NCBI GenBank assembly: GCA_011389865.1
Contig: JAABTL010000026.1
Coordinates: 1-36,364 of the forward strand
DNA length: 36,364 bases
Reading direction: 5' to 3'
Source of the DNA: Trueperaceae bacterium
GTDB taxonomy: Bacteria; Deinococcota; Deinococci; Deinococcales; Trueperaceae
The first letter of the stretch is position 1; every line of letters begins with the position of its first letter. Below, one piece after another: positions 34,157 to 36,364 of the stretch. The notes beneath the pieces are model-generated. The model did no database searches. It had not been told where the DNA came from and saw only the letters and a program-made list of their open reading frames with translations. The position numbers were made by a program, and so were the translations under genes.

Positions 34157-35638
34157 TCAGTCGCGCGCGCCGGCGCCTCCGCTGCGGCGGCTGCGGCGGC
34201 GGCGCGAACGCCCGCCCGCGCCGGCCTCACCCGCGGCACCGCCGGCGTGCTGCGGCGTGGGCGCGACGACCTGCGGGCGGGGGTGGCTCGCGCCGCCGCC
34301 ACCCGACGGACGGCCCGCGCCGGAAGGGCGGCCCCCGCCCGACGGGCGGGGCTCACCGGTGGACGCTCTGGCGGGCGGCCGACCGCCGCCGGCGGGTGAC
34401 CGCGACAGGCCGCCGCGACCGCCGCCACCGCGCGCGCCCCCGCGCTGCCCGCCGCCGGCGCTGCCGCCGCGTTGGAAGCGGCGCTCGTCGGCGTCGAGCC
34501 GGGCGGGGAGCGGGACGTCGTAGTCGAACCCCTCGAGGCGCTCGCGCGCGATGCGCTCGCCGAGCACCTTCTCGATGCGGCGCACCATGTCGGTGTCCTC
34601 GGGGGTCACGAAGGTGACGGCGTCGCCCTCGTGCCGCGCCCGACCGGTCCGGCCGATGCGGTGGACGTACGCCTCCTCGGTGTCGGGAACGTCGTAGTTG
34701 ACGACGTGGCTGACCTCGGCCACGTCGATGCCGCGCGCGGCGATGTCGGTGGCGACCAGCACGTGCACGTCGCCGCGGCGGAAGCCGTCGAGCGCCTCCT
34801 GGCGGCGGCGCTGAGACAGGTTGCCCTGGATCGAGGACACGAACAGGCCGCCGCCGTCGAGCTTCTCGGCGAGGCGCTTGGCGCGGTGCTTCGTGCGGGT
34901 GAACACCAGCACGCGGCGGGCGTCCCAGCGCCGCAGCAGCTCGCGCAGCAGCTCGGTCTTCAGGTGCGCCTCGACCGGGTAGAGGGCGTGCGCGACGGTC
35001 TCCGCGGGCGCGCTGCGGTCCACCGCCACCGTGACGGGGTCGGTCAGCGTCTCGTCGACGAGGTGGCGGATCGCCTCGGGCATGGTCGCCGAGAACAGCA
35101 GCGACTGCCGACCGCGCGGGAGCTGGCGCAGGATGCGGCGCACGTCCGGCAGGAAGCCCATGTCGAACATGTGGTCCGCCTCGTCGAGCACCAGCACCTC
35201 GACGCGCGAGAGGTCACCGTGGCCCTGGCTCAGCAGGTCGAGCAGGCGGCCGGGGCAGGCGACGACCACGTCGACGCCGCGGTTGAGCGCCTGGATCTGT
35301 GGGTTCATGCCGACGCCGCCGTAGACCGTCGCGCTCTTGATACCGGTCGCCTGGCCCAACTCACCGAAGGCCTGGTGGATCTGCTCGGCGAGCTCGCGCG
35401 TGGGGGCCACCACCAGCGCGCGGGTGACCCCACGCTTGGGGTCGCGCACGAGCCGGTCGAGGATCGGCAGCGCGAACGCCGCGGTCTTCCCCGTACCGGT
35501 CTGGGCCAGGCCCAGGACGTCACGGCCGGCCATCACGTGCGGGATGCCCTGCGTCTGGATGGGGGTGGGGTCCGTGTAGCCGACGGCGCGCACGCCGCTC
35601 AGCACTCGCGCATGCAGCGCGAAGGGTTCGAAACTCAT
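34157..35638 (-). CDS. DEAD-box RNA helicase with RGG-rich tail
   Basis: A 493-residue ATP-dependent RNA helicase of the RhlE-like type. An N-terminal F and Q motif (FEPFALHARVLSGVRAVGYTDPTPIQ) precedes AQTGTGKT (45-52), PTRELAEQ (79-86), DEAD (152-155) and SAT (183-185). The second RecA domain has VFTRTKHRAKRLAE, ATDIAARGIDV and HRIGRTGRA. From about residue 390 the protein is disordered and rich in G, R, S and P (GGARGGGGRGG, repeated RPSGGG/RPSGAG units) and ends in the basic cluster RSRRRRSRRSG, likely for nonspecific RNA binding or condensate formation. ATG 35638 is preceded by AGAGGTG 8 nt upstream. Its leader of about 160 nt contains tandem hairpins, suggesting autoregulation. Confidence 0.95.
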   Translation of the reverse strand: MSFEPFALHARVLSGVRAVGYTDPTPIQTQGIPHVMAGRDVLGLAQTGTGKTAAFALPILDRLVRDPKRGVTRALVVAPTRELAEQIHQAFGELGQATGIKSATVYGGVGMNPQIQALNRGVDVVVACPGRLLDLLSQGHGDLSRVEVLVLDEADHMFDMGFLPDVRRILRQLPRGRQSLLFSATMPEAIRHLVDETLTDPVTVAVDRSAPAETVAHALYPVEAHLKTELLRELLRRWDARRVLVFTRTKHRAKRLAEKLDGGGLFVSSIQGNLSQRRRQEALDGFRRGDVHVLVATDIAARGIDVAEVSHVVNYDVPDTEEAYVHRIGRTGRARHEGDAVTFVTPEDTDMVRRIEKVLGERIARERLEGFDYDVPLPARLDADERRFQRGGSAGGGQRGGARGGGGRGGLSRSPAGGGRPPARASTGEPRPSGGGRPSGAGRPSGGGGASHPRPQVVAPTPQHAGGAAGEAGAGGRSRRRRSRRSGGAGARD

Positions 35639-35651
35639 CTTGTCAACACCT

Positions 35652-35672
35652 CTCGGCGGATCGCCGGCCGAG
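35652..35672 (-). promoter_or_regulatory. Hairpin next to the helicase Shine-Dalgarno
   Basis: CTCGGC / GCCGAG with a 9-nt loop. On the minus strand its 3' arm overlaps the first two bases of the AGAGGTG Shine-Dalgarno, so folding could limit ribosome access. Confidence 0.35.
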
Positions 35673-35699
35673 GCGTGTCCTCGTACCCATCCGCTTGGT

Positions 35700-35736
35700 C
35701 GCGTCCTTGGACGCGGCACCGCGTCCTTGGACGCGG
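35700..35736. repeat. Two identical tandem palindromes in the helicase leader
   Basis: CGCGTCCTTGGACGCGG occurs at 35700-35716 and again at 35720-35736, a 20-bp period. Each contains the perfect 16-bp dyad CGCGTCC-TT-GGACGCG. In RNA each forms a 6-bp stem with a CAAG loop. As DNA they would be two operators about two helical turns apart. Confidence 0.7.
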
Positions 35737-35804
35737 CCCGCCTCGCGACGGGAACGCTCGGCACTGGGTCCGAGCGCGTTCGAGCGCTGTGCGCCCGACC
35801 GGAC

Positions 35805-35810
35805 AGTGTA
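35805..35810 (-). promoter_or_regulatory. -10 box (TGTACACT) of the DEAD-box helicase gene
   Basis: TACACT on the minus strand with TG directly before it. The -35 is poor (GACGCG region). A start near 35798 would give a 160-nt leader containing the hairpins. Between 35811 and 35911 I see nothing further of note. Confidence 0.35.
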
Positions 35811-35911
35811 CACGGGCGGCGCTCAGGACGCGTCGCGCGGTTCCACAACGCGTGACCCACGCATCGCGCTCAGCCGGCGAGCCAGCGTCGGCGGCCACCG
35901 ACGCGACGGGC

Positions 35912-36364
35912 TCAGGCCGGCGGAACCTCGGGCGCCCGCTGCGACCAGCGGACCCAGGCGTCGAGCCGGACGCGCGGCAGTTCACTCATGCGCTTGCCGC
36001 GGTAGGCCTCGGCCCGCAGCCAGGCGATCTCGTCGTCGACGGCCTCCTCGGCGACGTCGGTCCACCACGATCGCGCCTCGCCGCTCCAGCGGTAACCGCG
36101 CGCCTTGAGCAGGTCCTTCGACTCGAACGGCGAGCCGACCGCCCACAGCCGCACGGTGGCGCGGCGCGCGCTCGCCCGCAGCAGGTTGAGCGCGGTCTCG
36201 CCGCTGGTCGGCAGCGTGCGGCCCAGCAGCTCGACGAGCGCGTAGCCGTCCTCGACCGCCCGGTGGGCGCCGAAGAACAGGCCGTGGGCGGCGAGCAGCG
36301 AGCCGAGGCCGCCGCCCTCGTAGCCGTCGGCGTCGCGCCAGTCGATCTCGCGCAGGCTGCAGCC
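35912..36364 (-). CDS. 3'-5' exonuclease, DnaQ-like (C-terminal part)
   Basis: The last 150 codons of a gene cut by the right edge. The visible start GCSLREIDWRDADGYEGGGLGSLLAAHGLFFGAHRAVEDGYALVELL (written here as CSLREIDW, then GLGSLLAAHG, then AHRAVEDGYAL) corresponds to the C-terminal third of a DEDDh exonuclease domain. The H and D of HRAVED are the last catalytic residues. It is followed by a small domain seen in stand-alone exonucleases of this group (VRLWAVGSPFESKDLLKARGYRWS, SWWTDV, EIAWLRAEAY). An internal ATG at 36154 in other calls is not needed: GTG/V continues upstream in frame. It probably proofreads or trims DNA ends. The promoter and N-terminus are outside the window. Confidence 0.82.
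   Translation of the reverse strand, partial: GCSLREIDWRDADGYEGGGLGSLLAAHGLFFGAHRAVEDGYALVELLGRTLPTSGETALNLLRASARRATVRLWAVGSPFESKDLLKARGYRWSGEARSWWTDVAEEAVDDEIAWLRAEAYRGKRMSELPRVRLDAWVRWSQRAPEVPPA

Follow-up and report, generated by a model that had tools for sequence, protein, structure and literature searches.

The leader of an RhlE-like DEAD-box RNA helicase gene, located in a 36,364-nucleotide stretch of DNA (the window) whose kinship and named relatives place it in a Trueperaceae (Deinococcota) assembly, carries a hairpin of two helices at the translation start, and leader comparisons show this hairpin at one gene per genome. The interpretation of its inner and outer helices (P2 and P1) as a conserved cis-regulatory RNA element is well supported by their covarying stems and their fixed position at a single gene. 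We consider it probable (roughly 60%) that this cis-acting hairpin controls translation of the helicase mRNA, with an autogenous and cold-linked input being plausible.

The helicase gene occupies positions 34157 to 35638 of the minus strand, with its ATG at 35638-35636, and encodes DEAD and Helicase_C domains (detected with Pfam) and a glycine/arginine-rich tail. Its best models are of the RhlE type, with scores below the curated cut-offs. The preceding gene on the same strand encodes a fragment of an exonuclease-like protein (PRK09182, also below the cut-off). In L020, the helicase is immediately preceded on its own strand by a cold-shock-domain gene whose domain was confirmed by Pfam, and apparent cold-shock-domain genes have the same placement in L022 and L025. 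In the L025 leader, more than 50 consecutive C residues, which may stem from the assembly, lie between these two genes.

The Shine-Dalgarno sequence (SD) GAGAGG (35649-35654, minus strand) is situated 10 nt ahead of the ATG and could be aligned in relatives. It is overlapped by P2 (35652-35672, minus strand), in which CUCGGC (35672-35667) pairs with GCCGAG (35657-35652). In other leaders the same stem is formed by CUUGGCU:AGCCAAG or CCUGGCU:AGCCAGG, and across 21 leaders the helix covaries through exchanges between U-A and C-G pairs. The third hairpin that the original prediction had placed at the SD is thus real, and the covariation analysis of orthologous leaders that it proposed supports this hairpin and not the tandem dyads, which extend to one sister species only. 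A covariance model (R1) matches the window leader over 35636-35694 of the minus strand, start codon included. The match has an E value of 2.1e-9, for a sequence that was part of the training set, and no other site in the genome matches strongly. Across the Trueperaceae, no genome gave more than one strong R1 match, and every such match was the helicase leader, including those of G061 and G062, which had not contributed to the training. In the remainder of the phylum the best E value was 0.004, with three weak matches (G088, G103, and G046). Further weak matches (L146-L148 and, in Chloroflexota, L156-L168) were rejected since they look like chance on inspection. Metabolite riboswitches typically precede several genes of one pathway, a pattern that the occurrence at one gene per genome does not follow; a single-gene riboswitch is possible. 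Rfam searches returned only chance-level matches for the window leader and a single tRNA for 20 helicase loci, and no description of the element was found in the open-access literature searched. The element is new but of a familiar type, in which a leader hairpin is located at the ribosome-binding site of just one gene.

The outer helix P1 (35645-35679, minus strand) encloses P2 and the SD by pairing the upstream flank with the region from the SD to the start codon. In the window it is short (5 bp), joining GACAC (35679-35675) to GUGUU (35649-35645) in the predicted fold; a Chloroflexota example pairs CUGAGUG with CGCUCAG and terminates at a GUG start codon. To evaluate P1, the 5' flank of each species was paired with its own 3' flank and with those of other genera, using hand-set P1/P2 boundaries and the same data on which P1 had first been noticed; the Chloroflexota "genera" in these tests are sequence-similarity groups rather than taxonomic units, and L191 joined the test set after inspection. 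Pairing with the own flank exceeded that with swapped flanks across 17 genera (permutation p = 1e-4). Opening the SD-start region cost 7.3 kcal/mol, compared with 5.0 kcal/mol for swapped flanks (18 genera, p = 5e-5), and the difference was found in Trueperaceae alone (p = 0.04) and in Chloroflexota alone (p = 0.004). L011 is an exception, with an opening cost below that of its swapped flanks. In the Chloroflexota alignment, compensatory changes occur at two P1 pairs, and 96.8% of the cells are paired, far above the values for slid registers. Pairing of the SD or start codon in the closed form, the hallmark of an SD-sequestering element, is therefore indicated by the opening cost, whereas the comparison with whole-leader shuffles is mixed: whole leaders show no consistent reduction in predicted SD accessibility relative to shuffles, and in L016, L017, and L024 the site is predicted to be more open than in shuffles.

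The element also occurs upstream of a related helicase in some Chloroflexota (L047/L169, L101, L171-L173, L175, L177, L190, L191, L194, and L196), although that of L191 was recognized by eye and not by the model. The 5' sequence GUGCGACUUGGCU is often common to the elements of both groups. A model built from Chloroflexota only (R2) did not detect the window leader, yet its best matches in Trueperaceae are the helicase leaders of G007, G006, and G025; among 400 Chloroflexota it recovered only its nine training leaders. In a phylogenetic tree of the helicases, the Trueperaceae form one supported clade that has the element throughout except in L022, L025, and L026, where another hairpin is predicted to include the SD or to flank it. 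Since the distribution in Chloroflexota is patchy and the deep branches of the tree are unresolved, the tree does not allow a choice between common descent and transfer. As for individual leaders, the hairpin that includes or abuts the SD in L022 and L026, which have lost the element, is exemplified by CGCGUCCU:AGGACGCG in L022, and the last 45 nt ahead of the L191 helicase contain a perfect 19-bp hairpin that includes both the SD and a UUG start codon.

With P2 abutting or overlapping the SD and P1 tying the upstream flank to the SD-start region, ribosome access would need the hairpin to open. The helicase, or the RNA-folding state that it governs, may determine how much of the mRNA is in the closed or the open form and thereby tune helicase production, in the cold for example, a step suggested in part by analogy with rhlE of Caulobacter crescentus. 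The cold-shock-domain gene next to the helicase in L020 would fit such a role. Because the element is found once per genome and only at the helicase gene, an autogenous input appears the most likely; for the window helicase, we infer autoregulation and a cold response by analogy. A more specific version, offered tentatively, is that Trueperaceae and some Chloroflexota share an undescribed RNA family through which the helicase senses its own activity by binding or remodeling the hairpin at its ribosome-binding site, with the tandem hairpins of the window leader as added substrates. If so, the helicase mRNA would be a built-in gauge of RNA-folding capacity. Feedback from the gene product is known for some RNA helicase genes, yet few RNA elements that mediate it have been defined; a compact, conserved element that is confined to one gene, has a testable structure, and occurs in two phyla opens helicase autoregulation to testing.

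Known systems provide partial parallels. In SD-sequestering autogenous operators and RNA thermometers, a hairpin occupies the ribosome-binding site of one gene. The hairpin described here has the same placement, but it lacks a consistent predicted temperature response. The rhlE gene of C. crescentus has a structured 186-nt 5' UTR, its expression is higher in an rhlE null mutant, and low temperature induces a translational fusion to it (PMC5472812). Both are structured leaders of RhlE-type helicase genes with proposed post-transcriptional control responsive to the helicase itself; unlike in the window leader, cold induction and the null response have been measured in Caulobacter. Similarly, crhR of Synechocystis is an autoregulated RNA helicase gene responsive to temperature and its own product, as was shown there genetically and at several levels (PMC3485376).

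The feature that drew attention to this leader is a pair of exact 17-mers, CGCGTCCTTGGACGCGG, at 35700-35716 (the start-proximal copy) and 35720-35736 (the upstream copy), neither of which has an assigned strand. Exact matching and Tandem Repeats Finder (TRF; 20-bp unit, 2.2 copies, 35700-35741) confirm the two perfect dyads with a 20-bp repeat that had been reported in a helicase leader of about 160 nt. Each consists of CGCGTCC-TT-GGACGCG, with 7-bp arms and a 2-nt center. Hairpins with 7-bp GC stems are ordinary in this GC-rich window (62, or 1.7 per kb), so it is the repeat rather than the single hairpin that is non-random: nowhere else in the 36-kb window does an exact sequence of 17 nt or longer recur in direct orientation within 60 bp, and in 5000 dinucleotide-shuffled leaders such a repeat never arose. 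Since each dyad is self-complementary, the copies as RNA are predicted to pair with each other, joining as one longer hairpin at -28.4 kcal/mol in preference to two separate ones at -24.4 kcal/mol.

The dyads lie in a GC-rich hairpin array (approximately 35695-35780, minus strand) that is absent from the congeners G003 and G004, and they are placed within the transcript by a predicted promoter. A -10-like box, TACACT (35810-35805, minus strand), sits within GTGTACACTGYCCGGTC, which is almost unchanged in these congeners (leaders L011 and L039). Because of this conservation, the transcript start is predicted near 35798, upstream of the repeats and of position 35700, as a role of the dyads in the leader had presupposed. 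A sigma-70 scan found no full consensus match for the helicase promoter. The leader would accordingly measure about 160-166 nt in the window species and 83-84 nt in G003 and G004. As a whole it folds better than shuffles (z = -4.1). Neither an intrinsic terminator (a stem plus T run) nor any terminator-like site is present in 35500-36364, and a transcription attenuator is accordingly not supported.

In the leader comparison, the dyads were seen only in the window genome and in its sister species G002, whose helicase is 98% identical; they are missing from G003, G004, and all further genera whose leader could be read, though the promoter is conserved. A BLAST search with the dyad segment in five genomes of the genus found no other convincing relative (G001 yielded no helicase leader), and the proposed search for other genomic copies found no further exact copy of the 17-mer, so that a dispersed genomic repeat was rejected. 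MAFFT produced no sensible alignment of the window and G002 arrays, and the counterparts were instead matched by eye from their flanks. By this match, the upstream dyad corresponds to CCGCGTCGAGCGACGCGG in G002, with a changed loop and a retained stem, and the start-proximal dyad to CCGCGGCCAAGGCCGCC, with one double change from U-A to G-C and one outer pair lost; G002 has additional hairpins between the two. From sequence comparison, the dyads are best regarded as a recent tandem duplication in the lineage of the window species and its sister, outside the conserved element. They make the leader longer and possibly more structured, a young elaboration that may be neutral. In a leader, the repeat that stands out most is not necessarily the part that is conserved.

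Two readings would assign the dyads themselves a function. They could constitute an operator for a dimeric DNA-binding repressor, since perfect dyads spaced by 20 bp, or two helical turns, just downstream of a predicted promoter and its start site have the expected geometry. The original prediction had named such a repressor as its second reading, but the genome holds no other exact copies, the conserved promoters of the congeners lack the dyads, and the half-sites have changed symmetrically in G002. These changes preserve complementarity and not sequence, and a fixed operator is therefore disfavored, to the point of being very improbable. Retained complementarity agrees better with a lineage-specific array of RNA hairpins acted on by the helicase or by a double-strand-specific RNase, as do the loop changes and the double change seen by eye in G002 and the folding of the leader relative to shuffles. 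However, the array is missing from two congeners and from all other genera that have the same promoter and SD element, and two species are too few to demonstrate selection on the dyads, given that templated mutation in palindromes could produce the same pattern. A regulatory role of the tandem hairpins is thus improbable, if less so than an operator. Of the RNA switch that had been proposed for this leader, the RNA structure at the helicase start is upheld by covariation and the flank-swap tests, and the part assigned to the tandem copies is not, as these are not conserved.

For the SD hairpin, the alternatives concern what, if anything, it responds to. It may be a constitutive feature of the translation start, either fixed tuning or an mRNA-stabilizing stem, with no regulatory input. 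This would suit the differences in predicted accessibility between species, and neither a ligand, a partner, nor an alternative fold has been demonstrated; on the other hand, GUGCGACUUGGCU is conserved beyond pairing in both phyla and the element is confined to one gene, both of which suggest a specific recognition event. We regard a constitutive stem as unlikely, though it is the strongest of these competitors. A simple RNA thermometer, in which the SD hairpin melts with temperature, could be expected from an SD that is partly paired and flanked by helices, but the predicted SD accessibility in the window is nearly flat (0.24, 0.28, and 0.28 at 15, 37, and 60 °C) and that of the relatives is not consistently temperature-dependent, leaving this mechanism with very little probability. 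Repression relieved by melting would also be expected to lower synthesis in the cold rather than raise it, unless some factor opened the hairpin.

Structured leaders before related helicases are not confined to this element. In Nitrospirota and Desulfobacterota-type genomes, the 150 nt ahead of the related helicase contain a GC stem and a T run (GUAAGCCCCGGAAU...UUCCGGGGCUUUUUUU) close to the SD on its upstream side, resembling a transcription attenuator (L043, L044, L046, L050, L052, L054, L057, L063, and L074). Like the window leader, L043, L046, L050, and L054 are structured directly before the SD of the related helicase; unlike it, they have a GC stem followed by a T run, an attenuation-like arrangement. 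Anaerolineae, Smithella, and Syntrophaceae helicases (L056, L090, L109, L064-L069, and L075-L079) have strongly conserved leaders of their own, distinct from the window element, with apparent long-range complementarity within the 150 nt before the helicase.
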